Shown here piece by piece: positions 1,209 to 48,799 of a stretch of 64,000 nt of DNA (the first letter of the stretch is position 1; each line of letters begins with the position of its first letter). Source of the DNA: Flavobacterium fontis (GTDB lineage: Bacteria > Bacteroidota > Bacteroidia > Flavobacteriales > Flavobacteriaceae); contig NZ_FQVQ01000001.1 in NCBI RefSeq assembly GCF_900129405.1, positions 248,001 through 312,000 on the forward strand, given 5' to 3'. The position numbers were made by a program, and so were the translations under genes. The notes under the pieces are model-generated. The model was given only the letters and a program-made list of their open reading frames with translations. It did no database searches and had not been told where the DNA came from.

Positions 1209-1572
1209 AATGACTATAAATTGTTTTACTCATATCTTCAAAGAAGTAAATTCGATTCCCTTCTATTTTATCAAGAAAAATCAAATCTTTTATTTTACTC
1301 AAATATTCCACTTCAAGTGTATTTGCATTTATCCTTGCCAACTTGAACCCCGTTCCTAAAAACTTTTTGACATGAGCTGGTACGTATACAAATTCATCTT
1401 TGCAAATAGCCGGGCCTCCATAACGACCTTCTACTATTTTTCCATTAATTGACAGACTTCCAACTTCTGGACCTCCTTGGGAAATTTCTATTAAATCGGA
1501 ATATGCTATGTCAACATCTCCGATCTTCTTTTTTATAACAAATTGGATTGGATCTTCGAACCTACTCATCAT
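1198..1572 (-). CDS. Candidate immunity protein of the RHS toxin (124 aa)
   Basis: A small cytosolic protein without signal peptide or membrane segment. It is rich in beta-type residues and has an acidic C-terminal half. No family is recognised. Its start is embedded in the stop of the RHS gene (ATGATGA junction; a second in-frame ATG follows directly), which is the usual arrangement of an RHS toxin and its cognate immunity gene. Neutralisation of the C-terminal toxin domain of the RHS protein is therefore inferred from context. The next gene in the unit starts before this one ends. Confidence 0.75.
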   Translation of the reverse strand: MMSRFEDPIQFVIKKKIGDVDIAYSDLIEISQGGPEVGSLSINGKIVEGRYGGPAICKDEFVYVPAHVKKFLGTGFKLARINANTLEVEYLSKIKDLIFLDKIEGNRIYFFEDMSKTIYSHYEL

Positions 1573-4500
1573 CGGATTAGTTTAGAGGATTGATTAATTA
1601 CACTTCTAGACGGAACAATAAATTGGAATGAACCACCAGGGTATCTCCATCCTTGTGGACCTATGATTCCGAACTTAATTGGTGTGCCTTTAGGAATTAC
1701 ACCGGTCGTATACTGAGTTAGGGGATTCCATGCTGGTTTTATAGCTCCAAATGTTCTGTTAGCAAACTGACTAGTCCCTATCCTTGCTCCCCAAAAATCA
1801 GGTTTTCCAAGGCTCATATTGCCGAATCTTTGCACTGGGATGTTGAAAGGTGTATTTACTGTAAACCCTCTAAATAAGAATCCATCAGCTGTGGTTACCC
1901 CCTTAGCTGCACCCCATCCTGTTAAAGACTCCCAAAACGCACCAATTCCTTTAAACAAAGCAGAACCAATAAATAGATTTGCAATGGTGTTATCGTCACT
2001 AATCGCTCCATTAACTAATGGATATGTTTTTGAATAATCTCCAGGATTAGAAGTATAGAACTTAGTACCCCCTAGTGTTTGGTAACCGAAAGATGTAGAT
2101 TTAGATAAATCATCAAAATAAACTTTATGGTATCGAAAAAAATTACCATCAGAATCTGTTATTGTACCGTCACTATTTAGATTATAACAGTATCCATGAG
2201 TCTCATTGCTAACTGTAATGCTTATAGCAATTGATACAAATCCTTCAACTTCGCTTGTCACAATATCATAAATATTTTCAACATATGTATGACTTGTTAC
2301 TCCATCAATTTTTCTTGTTAACCAACCTCCAACACTTCTAGGTTCACTGTTATTAGCGTTTGAAAATCCAATATTTACATTTCCTCTATCCGAAGAGGGT
2401 ATGTAATTACCATACTCATCAAAGCGTTTACCCCAATGGGATTCAAATTCAGCATTTAAACTTTGACTATCCCCCCCACTCGGATCAGCCCAATAAACAG
2501 GGTTGTTGTCAAAGGCATTGTAAGGTGACAAACTTAAATGATCAACGGGGTCAATTACTGTCCAACGGGCTAGAGCTGGGTCGTATTGACGCAAATCCAT
2601 CATGTAACTATTCAATCCCAATTCATCCTGGTACTCTTGTCCGTTAAAACGATACTTGTACGGCGTTGCCTTTGGTTTAATACTTACTCCTGTGCCCAAA
2701 GCATCAAAATACTCTTGGTCAAGATTGTAATTATTATGTTTTAAACCATAAGGATAGTAATGGTTTTCTTCAAGAATTGTCAAGGAACTTGTTTGTGCAT
2801 TCCAAGCATAACTCAAACGGTTGTTCCCCAGATGGTCTTGATAATTAAAAACGTAATTGTAAACATTGGCATTATTGACCACAGTGTTACTTACATAGCC
2901 CTCAGCATGAGGGAAAAATTGCAACACTATGGCTCCTGCACTGCCTGTTTTTAAATACTGAAAACCATCCAAATAGTCGGTAGTAGTAACACTAGTTCCA
3001 TTGGTGACCACCTTTTGTTGTTTAATGCCCGAAGCATCGTAAAGATACGTAATTTTTCGGTTGGTTCCTGTAAAGGTTATTTCAACGGGTAAATTTAAGT
3101 GGTTATACTTAATCAATGTGATGCCTTTATTCTCATCTTTTGTTTGATTACCATAACTATCATAACTAAAATCATCACTGGTATCATTAGTTCCATTACT
3201 ATCATCTTTAAACCCACTCGATAAATTCGTAATATCGGTTACTTTCATTAATTTGTTTGAAATTCCATTGTCTTTGTAGATGTAGTTGAGCTGGTCTATT
3301 TTTATCACATTGATATCGTCATCCATTTCTCCATTACGCTCTAGACTCAAAATATTACCATTCTTGTCATAAGTTATCTTTTCATTATAACTATTTCTGA
3401 TTTCGGGAGTAGTTCCTGGTCGTTGGTAAATAGCTTCATTCAAACGATTGATTGCATCATACTGATAACCATATTTTCGTATAGCGCCATCACCATCGGT
3501 TCTCCAGTAGACTTCAGAGATATTACCATTGAACAAAGGGGTTACTTTACCATTCACATTGTTTTCAACAGTATCGTAATTCAATTTAAAGGCAAACAAA
3601 TCCCTTGGGTCGGTTCCCTTCGATAAATTAGTAATGTCATTAATTTGGGTTAACCAACCACGAATATTGTATTGATAATCGACAACCTGTAGGCCATTAT
3701 TCATATCGGTACCCCCAACGCGCTTGGTCTTTACTTCACCAAGTTCATCATATTCATACTTCACCAACAATTGCGTTGGTTCATTATTGATTTTGTGCTT
3801 GTGGCGAAGTAAACGACTCTGTGGGGTATAATCAAAATCCTCACGAACAAGAATTTCGGCACTTGTGCTTAATCGTTTATGCTTCGTTTCAGAAAAAACA
3901 ACTTTACCCGTAAAATCCAACTTTTGATCAACTTGGGTATACCCCCCTAAATGATTGGTTTTATAGTTACGCACCACACGACTATAACGGTCATACAACA
4001 AATAGGAAGTCAAATTTTTAACAGGAGCAGTAGTTGTAAGTTCATTCACCCTAGACCAAACTCCCGTGACCATTCCCTTAGGTTTAATCGTCGAATTGTT
4101 AAAATATACCGCTTGTGAGTTATCATTCAATACGGTTGTAAATGTTGTTGGCGCCCCAGGAAAACTATAATCATCATAATAATTGATAGTTAAAAGTTTA
4201 AAATTACTGGTTGGACTTACTACATTGGTATACCGAGCGGTAACATTATCAATTGTGGTGTTGGATGTGGTTTTACTTTCATTAATAACGGTTGCGCTAT
4301 TTTGTGTGCTTTGGAGCGAAAAACGCGAATTACTATCCACGGTAGCTGCTGACCAAGCGGTATAAACAACACGATTCAATACATCATACTTTGAAACCAT
4401 CCACCCATTGGAAGAACTATTATCACTAAAAGGAGATAAATGGGGTCCAGTTGCAACAACGCGATCAATTTTATCGTAAACAATATACTCCCAATGTTTA

Positions 4501-29848: not shown

Positions 29849-31498
29849 TTATAAATTGTCGATGATTTTGTCTTTGGGATAGCGCACCTTATAACTGATC
29901 CGTATTTTTTTGGATTCGTTGGGCGCCAATTTGAGATCCCAAGTCATGAAACCTGTTTCTGGGTTGACCGATGCTTTGCCGTCTTCCAGTAATTCTATGG
30001 TAATGTCTTTATCCGAACTCAACGGGTGCTGGTCTTTTAAAGTCAGATTAATTTCTTCTTTTTTATTATTGCGTATGGTGATGTCATACGTAAATGTTTG
30101 CTCTTTGTAGGAAGACAAAAACTTGGTACCCGATTTATCGACCACTTTCTCGCGTTTGATGGAAATCTTTTTATCCCGACCCATGCTCAAACTCAAAGTG
30201 TCTCCCGTTTGCTCCGGATTGATGAAGGTTTTGCCCACATTCATTTCTTCAAAAACTATATTGGCCTCGCCTGGTAACAAATTGTACTGGCCGTAGTTGT
30301 CAATTTTAGCCAGCAAATACGCTTCTTTCTCCAATCGTGGCGCACTGTAGAATTTGTAAGTGGCCGGAATCTGGATTTCTTTTAATGATACACTGTGCAT
30401 TTTTCCATTGGACAACACATCATACGGAATGTCAATGTCGAAGGTTACATTCAGTTGGGATTCGGAGATTTGGGTATAATCGTCGATTGTACCATCTTGA
30501 TCTCCATTTCGGAAATTAGTTGTATCGTTTTCAAAATTCTTTTTCAATTCCTCATTTTTTTTAGCACGAGTATACATATTACTTTGAGGTATATTTGAAA
30601 AAAACCCTACGCCTGCTCCAGATCCACTTCCAGATTCCTGATACCTCAAAAACCACGCTTGTTGCAACGGAGCTTCGTTACTTTGGTTGGGGTTGCCGCT
30701 CGACAAACTCATTTTGATTTTTTTCCAATCGATGCCGGTCGATTGCCAAACTTGGGCTTTGTACAGCAATTGAATGGGGTCTTTAATGCTGTTGGCACGT
30801 AAGTCATACATGGGTTTCCAACCCGCACTGTTGGTGATGTACGAAAAATTCAAGGTGACAGTACCCGCGATTTCGTTTAGGACTTGTACCACCAATTTCC
30901 CTTTCGACATTTTTTCTTCCTTGGCGGTATTCAATTGCAAACGCGCATTTAAGTTGGCCAAGGTCTTATTCCACTTGGTTTCTTTTTCTTTGAAGACTTC
31001 AATTTGGTTGTCGAGTTCGATGCGTTTCGCTTTATAATACTCCACCATTTTCATCAACTCGGCGGTATTCAAACCCGAATTGGCGCCGCCCACTTGTTGG
31101 TTGTTGTCGAGGAGTCCGATGGTTTGTTGGTGGGTGTAGATTTGAATTTGGACTTTCTTAATTTCTTTCTTAACGATTTCAATACTGTCGCGCACTTTTT
31201 TAATCGCGGGATTGCTTTCGTCAATTTCGTATTCGGAGATGTAATTTTTAGTAAACTGCACCGACATTACGGTTACCGACTTCGGAGCTTTGATTTGCAA
31301 CGTATTCTCGTTGATGTAATCGGCTACATTTTTTATTACGATTTCGCTATTCCCAACAGGCAAATTGAGTTGGGCGGAATGCTGCAGTTCTGCGCCGTTA
31401 AAGTATACCGTGGCACCTTGTGTTTTGGCGGTGGTAAACAAGGGTTTTTGGGCCAAGATACTCACAGGAAGGAGCAACAGCCAAAGAATATTTTTCAT
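29849..31498 (-). CDS. DUF4139 (MuiA-like) exported protein (549 aa)
   Basis: The open frame extends 25 codons upstream, but the ATG at 31498 begins a clear signal peptide (MKNILWLLLLPVSILAQ). The layout is that of mucoidy-inhibitor-A-type proteins: an N-terminal DUF4140 region (TTAKTQGATVYFNGAELQ), a coiled-coil region (about 90-190) and the C-terminal DUF4139 beta domain (GWKPMYDLRANS, KIKMSLSSGNP, KEQTFTYDITIRNNKKEEI, RISYKVRYPKD). Residues about 286-346 are a low-complexity Gly/Ser and Asn/Asp-rich insert. It is a tandem paralogue of the upstream gene. The role is probably in the envelope and is not established. Confidence 0.88.
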   Translation of the reverse strand: MKNILWLLLLPVSILAQKPLFTTAKTQGATVYFNGAELQHSAQLNLPVGNSEIVIKNVADYINENTLQIKAPKSVTVMSVQFTKNYISEYEIDESNPAIKKVRDSIEIVKKEIKKVQIQIYTHQQTIGLLDNNQQVGGANSGLNTAELMKMVEYYKAKRIELDNQIEVFKEKETKWNKTLANLNARLQLNTAKEEKMSKGKLVVQVLNEIAGTVTLNFSYITNSAGWKPMYDLRANSIKDPIQLLYKAQVWQSTGIDWKKIKMSLSSGNPNQSNEAPLQQAWFLRYQESGSGSGAGVGFFSNIPQSNMYTRAKKNEELKKNFENDTTNFRNGDQDGTIDDYTQISESQLNVTFDIDIPYDVLSNGKMHSVSLKEIQIPATYKFYSAPRLEKEAYLLAKIDNYGQYNLLPGEANIVFEEMNVGKTFINPEQTGDTLSLSMGRDKKISIKREKVVDKSGTKFLSSYKEQTFTYDITIRNNKKEEINLTLKDQHPLSSDKDITIELLEDGKASVNPETGFMTWDLKLAPNESKKIRISYKVRYPKDKIIDNL

Positions 31499-31559: not shown

Positions 31560-33386
31560 TTATAATTTTCCAATCGATTTGTTTTTATCGTAACGAACGG
31601 TATAGCTAAACCGCACCTTTTTGGTTTCGTTGGGTTGCAATGCGATATTCCACCGTAAAAAGCCTTTATCTGTGTTGACTGAAGCTTTTCCGTCGTTGGT
31701 GAGTTCGATCAAAATACTGGAATCATTGCTCAACGGATATTGATCGCGAAGGTCAACCGTAACCGCTTCCTTTTTGTTGTTTCGAAGGGTGATTTCATAC
31801 GTAAATTGCTGTTCTTTTTGAGACGACAAGAACTTAGTCGCTGATTTTGCTTTCACTTTTTCGCGTAGCACGTTGATTTTTTTATCCCGACCCAAACACA
31901 CACGCAACGAATCTTGGGTTTCATTCGGATTGAGTTGGGTAGTCCCCACAACAGTATCGTCAAAATACAATTGGGTGGTTCCTGGCAGCAGATTATATTT
32001 TCCGAAATCAGTGATCTCCGCCATTAAAAACACATCCTTATTCATTTTTGGTACGGAATAAAATTGGTAGTTGGCCGGAATCTCAAGATTTTTGATTTCG
32101 ATACCGTGTTTCTTTCCATTGGATAAAATAGCATACGGCAAATCAATGTCAAACGAAACGTTGAGTTCCCGTTCTACTACTTCGGTATAATCGGAAACGT
32201 TTTGTTTGGTAGTGATAATAATTACTCCGTTAGTACCTCGATTGCCATAAATTGCTACTGCACTTGCATCTTTTAACATTTCCACACTTTTTACAGCTTG
32301 AGGCGGAAGACTCCTGAAATCTTCTGCACTGGTTGGCTTTCCATCGATGATGTACAAAGGATCCGTGTTTCCACTAATGGTACTTGCTCCCCGAATTATC
32401 ACTGCACTTTTTGCACCAGGATTTCCAGTTGCCCCTGTGATATTCACACCGGCTAGTTGTCCTTGTAAAGTTTGTGTCAAATTGGCATTCGGTTGCATCG
32501 TAATTTTTTCTTTCTTTCCATACGGATTGCGGTAAACCAACGTCCACGCTTGTTGTAACGGCGCTTCATGTTGGGTAGCCGGATTCCCGTTGGAGAGGGT
32601 AAGTTTGATTTTGTTCCAATCAATGCCTGTGGTTTGCCACAACTGACTTTTCATCGTCAATGCCAAAGGTTGGGTGAGAGAAGTCGCTTTGAGGTCGTAC
32701 GTAGGTTCCCAACCTGCTAAGTTTGTCGTGTAGGATATTTGAATCGGATACGTTCCCGCTTGTGTCGTGTTGAGATACAACACCAACTGTCCTTTCGATT
32801 TAACGGATGAATTGGGTTTGGGGGTTAATTGCTGGTTCCAAAAATCCAATTGCTTTTGGTACTTGATTTGCTTTTCACCCAAAATATAGGCATCCCAAGA
32901 CAGTTCGTAGAGTTTGGATTGATAATACAACGAATAATTTGCCAATTGTTGGGTCACAATCCCCATATTGTCACCACTCAGCTTAGTGTTAGCGTTCAAC
33001 AAGGCAATTGTTTTTTCTACAGCTCCTTTTTGAATGATTATGGATTGGAGTTTGGATTGGAAAAAGCGAATGCTGTCGTGGACTTTGGCGAGTTCGGGAC
33101 GTTCGTATTCGGGGTCAAATTCGGTGGCGTAGTGTTGCGTAAATTGAGTGGCTAAAACAGTTACCGACTTCGGAGCACTAATGCGTAAAGAAGACTCATC
33201 TAATTCGTTGGCTATGTTTGAAATCACCAATTCGATAGTTCCTTCAGGCAACGTTACGGTTGTTTTATGATGAAGTTCGGCGCCCGCGAAGTAAACAGTA
33301 GCTGATTGTAGTTCGGCTTGCGCAAAAACGGGACGCTGTGCCCATAATGAATAGGAACAAAAAATAAGGAGTAGTAGGGTTTTCAT
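31560..33386 (-). CDS. DUF4139 protein with inserted TonB plug-like domain (608 aa)
   Basis: The same MuiA-type layout as its downstream paralogue. The signal peptide starts at the ATG at 33386 (MKTLLLLIFCSYSLWAQ). It has DUF4140, a coiled coil and the DUF4139 segments GWEPTYDLKATS, KIKLTLSNGNP and RFSYTVRYDKN. At the site where the paralogue has a low-complexity insert, residues about 292-395 form a SusC-type TonB plug module: LQGQLAGVNI, IRGASTISG, PLYIIDGKPTS, VKSVEMLKDASAVAIYG and GVIIITTKQ. No TonB box or beta-barrel is present. The plug may serve as a recognition or docking domain. The unit is followed by the paralogue 61 bases downstream. Confidence 0.9.
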   Translation of the reverse strand: MKTLLLLIFCSYSLWAQRPVFAQAELQSATVYFAGAELHHKTTVTLPEGTIELVISNIANELDESSLRISAPKSVTVLATQFTQHYATEFDPEYERPELAKVHDSIRFFQSKLQSIIIQKGAVEKTIALLNANTKLSGDNMGIVTQQLANYSLYYQSKLYELSWDAYILGEKQIKYQKQLDFWNQQLTPKPNSSVKSKGQLVLYLNTTQAGTYPIQISYTTNLAGWEPTYDLKATSLTQPLALTMKSQLWQTTGIDWNKIKLTLSNGNPATQHEAPLQQAWTLVYRNPYGKKEKITMQPNANLTQTLQGQLAGVNITGATGNPGAKSAVIIRGASTISGNTDPLYIIDGKPTSAEDFRSLPPQAVKSVEMLKDASAVAIYGNRGTNGVIIITTKQNVSDYTEVVERELNVSFDIDLPYAILSNGKKHGIEIKNLEIPANYQFYSVPKMNKDVFLMAEITDFGKYNLLPGTTQLYFDDTVVGTTQLNPNETQDSLRVCLGRDKKINVLREKVKAKSATKFLSSQKEQQFTYEITLRNNKKEAVTVDLRDQYPLSNDSSILIELTNDGKASVNTDKGFLRWNIALQPNETKKVRFSYTVRYDKNKSIGKL

Positions 33387-33388
33387 GG

Positions 33389-33919
33389 CTAATTTTTTAA
33401 CTGGAAATAATATTCTTTTCGGTGGTACCAACTCGATTGATTACCGTTCGGATAACTATGTACATAGCGTAAACAGATACGATTATCGCGTAAGGAAAAC
33501 ACCACCCATTTGCCATTATAAGGGGCGCCGCGTGCTTCTGAAAGTAAGTTGACCATGAGCGGATTGTCACTGTAAATTAGCGCCGCTTGATGGGGTGATT
33601 TTGTGAAATCCAAAAGGGTTTGCCCCACTAGAGTGTTGCCGGGTGTGCCTACATAAACCTCTGAAATATTTATTCGGTGGTTGGGACTGTGTTCGTGCCA
33701 ACCGGAATGATAGTAATAAAGCAGTTCCCATTGGCTTTGGGGTGTAATTTTTTCGTCCTTCTCTTTTTTGGGATTGGAGTTCCATACCGCAATTGTCGCC
33801 AAATCCCGTTTGATGATATCAGGATCGGTAATACGGGTTAAGTATTTCTCCAAAGGAGTATCGCTTTGGGTAAAACTCCAAAGGATAAGACACAACGGAA
33901 GGAAAACTAGTTTTTTCAT
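33389..33919 (-). CDS. Exported protein of unknown function (176 aa)
   Basis: A signal peptide covers about residues 1-18 (MKKLVFLPLCLILWSFT-Q). The mature part is mixed and rich in aromatic residues (WELLYYYHSGWHEHSP, WYHRKEYYFQL). No family is recognised. Its stop lies 2 bases before the first DUF4139 start codon, so it probably shares a transcript with the two DUF4139 genes. A role connected with them is inferred only from this spacing. Confidence 0.75.
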   Translation of the reverse strand: MKKLVFLPLCLILWSFTQSDTPLEKYLTRITDPDIIKRDLATIAVWNSNPKKEKDEKITPQSQWELLYYYHSGWHEHSPNHRINISEVYVGTPGNTLVGQTLLDFTKSPHQAALIYSDNPLMVNLLSEARGAPYNGKWVVFSLRDNRICLRYVHSYPNGNQSSWYHRKEYYFQLKN

Positions 33920-45946: not shown

Positions 45947-48799
45947 ATGAGGATTTATCATCTTTTTGTAACGCTGTTGTTCTGTGCGGTGACTTTTGCA
46001 CAAACAACCATTACAGGTTCGGTAAAAGACAGTAAAAACGAACCCATACCTGGGGCAAATGTTAAAGTAGCGGGAGAGTCTGCCGCGGCTGTAACAGATG
46101 CTGACGGTAAGTTTACCTTGAAAACGTCCAAAAAACCTCCTTTTACCCTTGAAATCTCTAGCATTGGTTTTGCCACGCAAAAGGTTCAAGTAACGTCTGC
46201 TTCCCAAAAAGTGGATGCTGTGTTGCAAAATGAGGATACACGATTGGATGAAATTGTAATTTCAGCGTCTAGAACACCTGAGCGCATTCGGGAATCTCCT
46301 GTAACAATCGAGCGTATGACGGTGAAAGACATCAAGCGTTCGGCGTCACCTACTTTTTATGATGGTTTAGAAAACCTTAAAGAGGTGCACATGAATACGA
46401 GTAGTATGTCGTTTAAGTCAATAAACACCCGTGGATTTGCTACGGTGGCCAATACACGTTTCATGCAGTTGGTCGATGGAATGGACAACTCTTCTCCGTT
46501 GTTGAACTTCGTATTGGGGAACTTAATTGGTATATCTGAAATTGATGTGCAAAGCGTGGAATTACTACCTGGGGCTTCTTCTGCATTGTATGGAGCTAAC
46601 GCGTTCAACGGTATTTTATTCATGACTAGTAAGAGTCCTTTTACAAGTCAAGGGGTTTCCGCGTATGTGAAGTATGGTCAAACCAGTCAGCGTGCTGCAG
46701 GAACTAATGAATATGCCGACTATGGTGTGCGTGTGGCGCATGCGTTCAACAAGAATTTTGCAGCGAAAGCCAACTTTTCATTTATGACAGGAACCGATTG
46801 GTTTGCCACAGATTACCGCGACATAGATTTAGTTAACAATGTAGGTTTAGATCGTTCTTTCCACAACTACAACGGGATCAATGTTTATGGTGATGAGGCT
46901 TCAACTAATTTACGTGGTGTGGCTACAGGACTTTTGAATGCAGGCGCAATTACACCCGCGCAGTTTTCGGTTTTCCAACAAATCTTACCGAATTATAATG
47001 TAAGCCGTACAGGATACAACGAAGTTGATTTGACCGATAACAAAGTCAAAAATGCTAAAGTTGACTTCTCGTTACATTTCAAACCTTGGGGTGATGATAA
47101 TGAAATCATTTGGCAAAGTAAATTTGGCTTTGGAAATACGGTATACCAAGGAGCGAACCGTTATTATTTGAACGGTTTCTTCATGCAACAACACAAATTA
47201 GAATTTAAAGGGAAAAACTATTTCGTTCGTGGATATTTCACTACTGAAGACGGTGGAAACTCTTACGACATGTTGTTTACGGGATTAAACGTAAACCGCC
47301 AGTGGAAATCCGATGCACAGTGGTTTGGTCAATACGCTGGAGCGTACGTTCAGTCTACATTGGCGGGAGCGACACCTGCACAAGCACATGCTGCGGCTCG
47401 CGGGGTAGCGGATACAGGGCGTTTGATTCCAGGCACACCTGAATTCCAAGCTGCATTCAACCGCGTTATTGCAGATCCAAATGTACTTACAGGATCACGA
47501 TTGGTAGATGACTCTAAATTGTATCACTCCGATGCGAATTACAACTTCAAAGACCTGGTTAAGTTTGCAGAAATTCAAGTCGGGGGATCTTTCCGTATGT
47601 ATGAGTTGAACTCTTTGGGTCGTATTTACACCGATAAAGGTACAGATATCTTATACCGTGAATACGGAATTTATACGCAAATCCAAAAGAAATTCATGGA
47701 TGATCGTTTGAAGTTTACCGGGTCTATTCGTTATGATAAGTCACAAAATTTTGATGGAGATTATTCACCACGTTTATCGTTGGTATACTCGGCAGGTGAG
47801 CAACGTAACCACAATTTCCGTGCTTCATTCCAAACCGGTTTCCGTAACCCAACCACGCAAGACCAATATATCGGGTTTAACGTAGGAAGTGCGGTGTTAT
47901 TAGGTTCTGCTCCCGATAACTTAGACCGTTATACTGAAACCTTACCGATTACTTCTGCTTCAGGGCAAGCCATCGTGGGTGGTACTTCTACAACCATTAA
48001 CGGTAACAATGCTTATTTCAATTCGTACACTGCTGCATCAGCGGCGCAATTTGCAGCTTTAGCGGGAACCGATCCTGTGGCAGCTTCTGCTTTGTTGCGT
48101 AGAGCGAATGTAAGTTTGGTACAACCAGAAACAGTGAAAGCTTTTGAATTAGGATACCGTGGTCAAATTAAAAATTTATCGTATGACATTACGGGATACT
48201 ATAATATCTACAACGACTTTATTGGAAACGTAAACGTAGTAACTCCACTATACGGGGTGGCTCAAGATGCTCCCAACCCATTAGCGGGTCCTACCGATAC
48301 AGGAGCTCAGTCAATTGATGCTTTGGCAACAGGAAATACACGTGTTTTCCAATTGTATACAAATACAGGTGTTGAAGTTCGTTCACTTGGTTTTGGGGCT
48401 GGATTCAACTATCGTTTGCCTAAAAACTTCGAGTTTAGTGCCAACTACAACTTTGCGGAATTTGATTATGATCAAGATCAAGACCCTGGATTTGAAGCAG
48501 GTTTTAACACCCCTAAACACCGTGTTAAAGCGAGCATCAGCAATGATAATTTGTTTAAAAACTTTGGATTCAGCATCAGCGGCCGTTGGAATACCGGGTA
48601 CCGTTGGGAATCAACTTTCGTAGACGGGTGGATTGATGAAGCAACTGTATTTGATGCGCAAATCAACTACAACATACCAAAGTTGAAATCGGTTCTAAAA
48701 ATCGGAGCTACTAATATCTTAGGTAACGAATACCAACAAGTATTAGGAGCCGGATTTATCGGAAGTCAATATTTTGCTTCTTTAACCATCAATCCTTAA
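45947..48799 (+). CDS. TonB-dependent receptor with carboxypeptidase-like N-domain (950 aa)
   Basis: An outer-membrane active transporter driven by TonB. A signal peptide covers residues 1-18. A CarboxypepD-regulatory-like domain lies at about 22-97 (TGSVKDSKNEPIPGANVKV). The plug follows at about 105-225 (DEIVISASRTPERIRESPV, INTRGFATVANTRFMQLVDGM, VELLPGASSALYGANAFNGIL). The rest is the beta-barrel, with the terminal aromatic-rich strand. The substrate is not evident. The SGNH-hydrolase lipoprotein gene follows after 23 bases, so the pair probably binds, hydrolyses and imports an ester-containing compound (inferred). A 20-bp palindrome lies upstream. Confidence 0.94.
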   Translation: MRIYHLFVTLLFCAVTFAQTTITGSVKDSKNEPIPGANVKVAGESAAAVTDADGKFTLKTSKKPPFTLEISSIGFATQKVQVTSASQKVDAVLQNEDTRLDEIVISASRTPERIRESPVTIERMTVKDIKRSASPTFYDGLENLKEVHMNTSSMSFKSINTRGFATVANTRFMQLVDGMDNSSPLLNFVLGNLIGISEIDVQSVELLPGASSALYGANAFNGILFMTSKSPFTSQGVSAYVKYGQTSQRAAGTNEYADYGVRVAHAFNKNFAAKANFSFMTGTDWFATDYRDIDLVNNVGLDRSFHNYNGINVYGDEASTNLRGVATGLLNAGAITPAQFSVFQQILPNYNVSRTGYNEVDLTDNKVKNAKVDFSLHFKPWGDDNEIIWQSKFGFGNTVYQGANRYYLNGFFMQQHKLEFKGKNYFVRGYFTTEDGGNSYDMLFTGLNVNRQWKSDAQWFGQYAGAYVQSTLAGATPAQAHAAARGVADTGRLIPGTPEFQAAFNRVIADPNVLTGSRLVDDSKLYHSDANYNFKDLVKFAEIQVGGSFRMYELNSLGRIYTDKGTDILYREYGIYTQIQKKFMDDRLKFTGSIRYDKSQNFDGDYSPRLSLVYSAGEQRNHNFRASFQTGFRNPTTQDQYIGFNVGSAVLLGSAPDNLDRYTETLPITSASGQAIVGGTSTTINGNNAYFNSYTAASAAQFAALAGTDPVAASALLRRANVSLVQPETVKAFELGYRGQIKNLSYDITGYYNIYNDFIGNVNVVTPLYGVAQDAPNPLAGPTDTGAQSIDALATGNTRVFQLYTNTGVEVRSLGFGAGFNYRLPKNFEFSANYNFAEFDYDQDQDPGFEAGFNTPKHRVKASISNDNLFKNFGFSISGRWNTGYRWESTFVDGWIDEATVFDAQINYNIPKLKSVLKIGATNILGNEYQQVLGAGFIGSQYFASLTINP

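Follow-up and report, generated by a model that had tools for sequence, protein, structure and literature searches.

Colicins and pyocins, which are not transporters, carry TonB boxes. On transporters, TonB acts through the transporter's own TonB box, which in BT1763 is the required sequence VDEVVV, with EVVV as its core (PMC7782687). The N-terminal extension (NTE) of SusC corresponds to PF13715 and is described as having no known function (PMC7782687). Contact of TonB-type proteins with a soluble partner has a parallel in ferredoxin, which contacts the TonB homologue FusB (PMC7593965). Ferredoxin, colicins and pyocins are non-transporter proteins that engage TonB machinery, as we propose for the protein described below, but they are imported cargo or toxins and not resident envelope proteins that copy SusC.

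The protein in question, P0001, has its whole scaffold in common with the MuiA/DUF4139 family (TIGR02231, PF13598, PF13600), and differs in that a SusC plug fills the loop where its paralogue P0002 has a short linker. A role of P0001 in inhibiting mucoidy would follow from the family name only. Among the matches listed in the open-access literature, titles and abstract openings held no mention of barrel-less proteins with a SusC N-terminus; InterPro may well include the DUF4139-Plug architecture.

A SusC plug within a DUF4139 protein

The window analysed is a stretch of 64,000 nucleotides from Flavobacterium fontis (genome G000). P0001 and P0002 lie on its minus strand, with the following features in window coordinates:

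31560-33386, minus strand: P0001, DUF4140-DUF4139 (MuiA family) protein with a barrel-less plug, 608 aa (open reading frame, ATG start)
33339-33386, minus strand: putative signal sequence of P0001, residues 1-16 (hydrophobic stretch, by eye)
32997-33302, minus strand: DUF4140 domain of P0001, residues 29-130 (Pfam)
32532-32744, minus strand: N-terminal part of DUF4139 in P0001, residues 215-285 (Pfam and coordinate arithmetic)
32163-32531, minus strand: insert of P0001, residues 286-408 (Pfam, alignment to relatives, structural alignment)
32205-32495, minus strand: plug core of P0001, residues 298-394 (within the insert)
31587-32162, minus strand: C-terminal part of DUF4139 in P0001, residues 409-600 (Pfam and coordinate arithmetic)
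29849-31498, minus strand: P0002, the paralogue, DUF4140-DUF4139, 549 aa (open reading frame and Pfam)
30452-30640, minus strand: insert of P0002 at the homologous site, 63 aa, residues 287-349 (alignment)

P0001 is presumably an exported protein, predicted to be periplasmic, of the MuiA family (TIGR02231, 223.1 bits against a cut-off of 112.6 in NCBIfam), with Pfam matches above the curated cut-offs to DUF4140 (59 bits) and to DUF4139 (174.5 bits, residues 215-600). The original prediction of a TonB plug-like module without a barrel is borne out on both counts. Pfam places a Plug domain (PF07715, 58.5 bits, cut-off 23.9, E 1.1e-15) at residues 292-388, inside the DUF4139 match, and NCBIfam finds a partial SusC/RagA match at residues 291-400 and TIGR04056 at 133.6 bits, below its cut-off of 368.25. 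Among PDB sequences, too, the insert is matched best by SusC/RagA chains, from E 9e-21 (phmmer). The hallmarks quoted in the prediction were located at residues 307-314 (LQGQLAGV), 345-351 (YIIDGKP), 368-381 (VEMLKDASAVAIYG) and 387-394 (GVIIITTK), while the word 'REGION' quoted with them is not sequence. Beyond the plug, the open reading frame and Pfam matches show no barrel: the protein reverts to DUF4139 and ends at 608 aa. The insert is unmatched by the TonB-box pattern, and no CarboxypepD_reg (PF13715) match indicative of an NTE appears in P0001 at E 1 in Pfam.

Structure prediction covered P0001 and a relative from another Flavobacteriaceae member (L045). The AF2 model of P0001 has a mean pLDDT of 78.6 and a mostly good scaffold; within the plug, confidence is fair (pLDDT about 80) for the C-terminal half, and residues 274-316, 318-326 and 332-338, which contain the N-terminal half, fall below 50. 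Residues 298-394 of the model superpose on the plug of the SusC protein BT1763 (6zlt_B; Z 8.1, rmsd 3.4 over 91 aa, 48% identity; VIA-align). Foldseek with the same model returned nothing at E 0.001 or better, the weak matches including the TonB receptors Cir and RagA. Plug residue R332, an arginine that may have a role in barrel contact, is invariant in 13/13 rows of alignment A3, comprising P0001 and 12 relatives with L061 and L067 left out.

In P0002 the scaffold is present and Pfam has no Plug match, and none of the SusC motif patterns matches its insert. Compared with the nearest row (L078), P0002 is 97.6% and 99% identical outside the insert and 45.5% inside, and we class its insert with the fast-changing short linkers. 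The paralogue was predicted to have an insert at the same place, which it does; the accompanying idea of one insert swapped for another is too simple, as the loop is a family-wide hotspot with several states of SusC N-terminal pieces.

Two neighbouring frames were also noted. An open reading frame upstream of P0001 (33389-33919, minus strand) stops 2 bases short of its start codon (window 33384-33391), and the two may therefore be co-transcribed. At 45947-48799 on the plus strand, a 950-aa frame with its own Plug match (52.3 bits; G000:C21:294286-294615) is presumably a TonB-dependent receptor.

Forms of the insert among relatives

We compiled 168 DUF4139 proteins, a non-random sample that combines those scoring best against P0001 or the DUF4139 model with the matches listed in family, genus and phylum searches, phylum matches weaker than about E 1e-30 being left out. 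A full-length match with at least 41% identity to P0001 occurs in at least 15/299 genus genomes, own included; the count is a lower bound because four candidates per genome were scored. In all 14 other genomes the full-length relative has a plug-like insert, and P0001 is not unique in this. The relative in G244 (locus L056) is 82% identical to P0001 and has the same tandem paralogue beside it.

Across the sampled Bacteroidota, the insert takes the form of an NTE with TonB box and plug, an NTE with TonB box and a plug stub, a plug alone, or a short linker. By simple patterns, an NTE is present in 46 of the 168 inserts; a further 23 are long and lack one, and the other 99 are shorter than 100 residues. 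Pfam finds Plug in 26/50 members of alignment A1 and the CarboxypepD_reg-like PF13715 in 16/50, which are not frequencies because the 50 members were chosen to include many plug forms. Carriers of a plug form by pattern include Flavobacterium difficile, F. limnosediminis, F. terrigena, F. swingsii and Edaphocola flava; the insert anchors failed in 21/80 named loci.

Among rows without an NTE, 16 have the plug core alone and one also has a TonB box. A strict mutual exclusion of TonB box and plug was rejected, because NTE forms usually hold both: the TonB-box pattern is also matched in 18/21 rows labelled as NTE plus plug core. These labels carry errors, the NTE pattern being assigned to L063 and L027 without a visible NTE and missing visible ones in L107, L108, L125, L129 and L145, and the insert-state counts are approximate because strict TonB-box patterns miss visible boxes. 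L045-type proteins of other Flavobacteriaceae have an NTE, a TonB box and a plug at the insertion site of P0001 (Pfam CarboxypepD_reg-like and Plug), whereas P0001 retains the plug only. A partial plug in L371 ends after the N-terminal half, and in some inserts the order of motifs is permuted. The linkers of L072, L067, L063, L077 and L346 contain the odd recurring motifs YYRGNVYSK, YRDGDK and FDTLSNGKIIAR in varying order.

Gain and loss of SusC pieces

Mapped onto a scaffold tree of 167 proteins (FastTree, with several long branches and approximate states), the insert changes 21 times in plug core, 30 times in TonB box and nine times in NTE. Such replacement can be seen between close relatives: L057 and L060 share 91.7% and 95.5% identity in the regions flanking the insert, against 42.7% inside it, and the plug of each is of the SusC type of its own genome. 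When 15 DUF4139 plugs are placed in a tree with 28 SusC plugs, a single clade is rejected for the DUF4139 plugs (AU p 1.3e-5), and also within plug types (8 rows, p 0.007; 7 rows, p 0.003; AU, for groups named after the tree was viewed). Two rows labelled as transporters in one comparison, L007 (which is P0001) and L024 (the M56 protein discussed below), are absent from the plug trees. The plugs of P0001 and L056 form one clade and therefore stem from one capture, which apparently took place before G000 and G244 diverged; the G244 gene has the plug too. On these comparisons, DUF4139 plugs go back to several captures, in most cases from the line of descent of the resident leader-type SusC, with G218 and G313 fitting poorly.

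Kinship with the resident SusC transporter

P0001 and the SusC/RagA transporters have the plug in common, but P0001 lacks the barrel, TonB box and NTE and holds its plug within another domain. At 67-68% identity, the plug matches that of a SusC encoded in its own genome (C31:69797-70105, within a 1025-aa frame), the gene of which is followed by one for a SusD-like lipoprotein (by eye). GC3 is 0.283 in the P0001 plug, 0.37 in the SusC plug and 0.462 in the P0001 scaffold, the plug being nearer to SusC.

A SusC with a similar leader is present in each of the 15 genus genomes having a plug-bearing relative. When each DUF4139 plug was compared with the plugs of these 15 transporters, the SusC of its own genome ranked 1, 2, 2, 1, 1, 5, 2, 1, 9, 1, 3, 1, 1, 2 and 1 with L259 representing G342 (first in 8/15, first or second in 12/15), and 1, 2, 2, 1, 1, 5, 2, 1, 9, 1, 2, 15, 1, 2 and 1 with L254 (first in 7/15, first or second in 12/15). 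Both G342 proteins are of the leader type; L254 was used first, and L259 was picked after the result. With either, none of 20,000 permutations reached so high a likeness (p 5e-5). The same value was obtained within plug type, also after removal of two sister genomes (with L259), the permutation handling phylogeny through plug type and two sister pairs only. In 13/13 genomes with a further SusC, the leader-type SusC also scores above the others compared, one or two per genome; in G342 both SusCs have the leader and the better one was taken. The poor fits are G218 (own rank 9) and G313 (own rank 5). The L056 plug is nearer to the SusC of G000 (66/101) than to its own (63/103), and the likeness therefore fails on the shortest time scale, that of G000 and G244.

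Short DUF4139 linkers show a weak likeness to the own SusC (p 0.006, own rank 1 in 2/30), in a test where 20/30 SusCs were leader-type by pattern, the best match stood in for the other 10, the G171 stretch was wrong and all rows were kept. A clear case is G432, with VVVQGYDVKRTK in SusC and VVVQGYDVKRSK in the DUF4139 protein.

Recent gene conversion from SusC found no support in codons. At identical residues, fourfold third bases agree in 137/406 cases for own pairs (0.337) and at 0.324 with the three best other SusCs, and codon identity is 0.437 for own pairs against 0.393 with other SusCs; conversion of recent date is unlikely because fourfold sites look saturated. The resemblance at the protein level would then reflect either an old copy kept by constraint or selection that favours likeness. 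Between P0001 and L056, dN/dS is 0.144 for the plug, with dS about 1.1, and 0.077 for the rest, values that are approximate because dS runs from 0.9 to 1.6 by region. In this one pair, the ratios show a plug evolving under purifying selection, with weaker constraint than the scaffold.

The SusC genes L240, L235, L236 and L238 encode a nearly identical signal sequence (MRSKFKWIFTLL..) ahead of plugs of two types, and a conserved in-frame stretch, EVC.ITNSNK, lies upstream of their start.

TonB boxes in linkers and long inserts

The first motif patterns were devised while viewing the inserts, and the count was redone with the exact EVVV of the published TonB box. This motif occurs in 21/99 short inserts (mean 0.27 and maximum 2 in 300 shuffles), in 33/46 NTE inserts (shuffle mean 0.37) and in 5/23 other long inserts (shuffle mean 0.16), against 4/99, 0/46 and 0/23, respectively, of the scaffolds, which come from the same proteins and are far longer than the inserts. 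After similar inserts were thinned, E[VI][VI][VI] was present in 20/82 short ones against 0.63 expected; this looser pattern is common in scaffolds too and is no evidence alone, because they hold it in 76/99. TonB-box and LQG motifs recur in short linkers far above chance, the TonB-box motifs also in distant families, e.g. L110-L112 and L138. IRG-type motifs in short linkers were set aside as unreliable, resembling point-mutated TonB boxes in one near-identical species group.

Possible roles of the captured plug

Our favoured reading, at a probability of about 0.47, is that the P0001 plug was captured from the N-terminus of a SusC and serves to dock onto the TonB-SusC machinery or to mimic a part of it. 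Its capture is what the sequence comparisons demonstrate; its docking we infer. We propose that the plug entered a variable DUF4139 loop from a leader-type SusC of its own lineage, found today at C31 of G000. In this family, the same loop has repeatedly taken up SusC NTE, TonB box and plug, in the tested cases mainly from the resident leader-type SusC. As a docking or mimic domain, the module would show the N-terminal face of SusC to SusC's partners. Where the TonB box is kept, the simplest partner would be the C-terminal domain of TonB; where only the plug remains, as in P0001, it might be TonB, SusC or an assembly factor. P0001 would thereby be wired to the TonB-SusC machinery as a regulator, competitor or assembly factor.

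Use as a binding or docking domain had been predicted, and still seems the best explanation, with indirect support from the resident-SusC likeness, which hints at docking on the same machinery, from purifying selection and from retention of the TonB box in relatives. The plainest docking route is missing in P0001, because it and nearly all plug-only relatives are without a TonB box. Docking is further opposed by the many losses or erosions of the insert and by the persistence of P0002 without a plug, and old copying followed by purifying selection would yield equal likeness without a continuing link.

The main rival, which we regard as a serious if less probable possibility, is that the plug is a functionless passenger in a tolerant DUF4139 loop, into which SusC N-terminal segments recombine, being abundant and resembling the present content of the loop, and then erode to linkers. 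The scatter of insert states over the 167 rows, near-identical scaffolds with widely differing inserts, partial plugs such as that of L371 and the occasional permuted motif order are all as such an origin would have it. Purifying selection on the plug in the single pair tested argues the other way, as do TonB-box motifs far above shuffles in short linkers, distant families included, and the fourfold sites, which give no sign of recent gene conversion.

It is unlikely, in our estimate, that P0001 is a SusC assembly or quality-control factor, with SusC barrels or BAM recognising its plug copy or being competed for by it, so that the protein monitors transporter folding. Likeness to the leader-type SusC in plug-only forms that lack a TonB box and the invariance of R332 would suit this role, which does not account for inserts where a TonB box or NTE occurs in the absence of a plug core. 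Very improbable is a decoy that protects from bacteriocins or phages entering by way of SusC or TonB, its plug or TonB box competing either for the invader or for TonB: a fast-changing insert bearing motifs of the resident transporter would be expected of it, but selection on the plug is purifying and not diversifying in the one pair tested. Lastly, an assembly chimera or mis-joined contig has next to no likelihood, given the plug gene beside its paralogue in G244 and full-length matches in 13 further genus genomes.

Other proteins with SusC pieces and no barrel

Copies of the SusC N-terminus are not confined to DUF4139 proteins. The own genome has 25 Plug matches, and at least two of these, in P0001 and in the M56 peptidase L241, belong to proteins without a barrel. 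Carriers of SusC pieces outside the DUF4139 family include the following, in coordinates of their own loci:

1302-3221 (G000:C16), plus strand: L274, YfbK-type vWA protein (open reading frame; Pfam YfbK_C, vWF_A and CarboxypepD_reg-like)
1530-3272 (G000:C30), minus strand: L241, BlaR1-type M56 peptidase, plug-like at its C-terminus (24.1 bits, cut-off 23.9; Pfam)
1118-2548 (G338:C1:2082500-2085500), minus strand: L279, 477-aa barrel-less carrier, CarboxypepD_reg-like and Plug (51.8 bits) after an apparent transmembrane segment (by eye)

Like P0001, L274 is an exported-looking protein with a copy of the SusC N-terminus, but its NTE, TonB box and plug start are N-terminal rather than in a loop, and its scaffold is unrelated. 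It begins with an NTE and a TonB-box stretch, EVVITQGYRLVTKKT, identical to the own SusC at 15/15 residues and 8/15 codons. YfbK_C was found in 10/30 genomes. The own SusC ranked 2, 1, 1, 1, 1, 1, 2, 1, 10 and 2 among ten for these proteins (p 1e-4, 1/20,000 permutations as high), a test that used one copy per genome, 10/12 copies in all, with L392 and L403 (no module) out, L400 (no module) kept and five N-termini cut by the locus end. Against 31 leader SusCs, the own one ranked first in five cases, second in two, third in one, and 11th and 28th in the others, the last being G338, the YfbK-type protein of which has no SusC module. Over 186 residues, the G302 copy is 73% identical to its own SusC and 35-57% identical to seven others; fourfold sites agree at 21/61.

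In L393-L399, the YfbK-type N-terminus holds a SusC NTE and TonB box, with a complete-looking plug as well in G302, G196 and G432. A plug-like end (MYGDKGGNGLIIITSK) lies in frame ahead of the YfbK frame of L393 (G339:C45), and a further plug-bearing gene may therefore lie upstream. The M56 peptidase L241 resembles P0001 in having a barrel-less Plug match, but it is a membrane peptidase and the match is marginal; a counterpart with a plug-like stretch, L239, is present in G244.

It is conceivable, though we hold it doubtful, that DUF4139/MuiA and YfbK-type vWA proteins, and perhaps M56 peptidases, make up a class of resident non-transporter envelope proteins, found in flavobacteria and other Bacteroidota, the TonB boxes and plugs of which were copied from the major SusC of the host and have stayed like it, and which TonB-ExbBD also drives or senses through mimicry. 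If so, the specificity of TonB-ExbBD for non-transporter clients would be set by mimicry of one transporter. Copies of the SusC N-terminus that resemble the resident SusC in two unrelated barrel-less scaffolds make shared binding of TonB or SusC directly testable. Should both bind the same TonB or SusC, the DUF4139 and YfbK-type proteins of Bacteroidota would gain a role, and NTE, TonB box and plug would be a portable module beyond a transporter part.

On the side of TonB itself, the own genome has five TonB_C matches. One of them (G000:C11:62033-62239) lies in a 698-aa frame, compared with frames of 267-277 aa for the three best.
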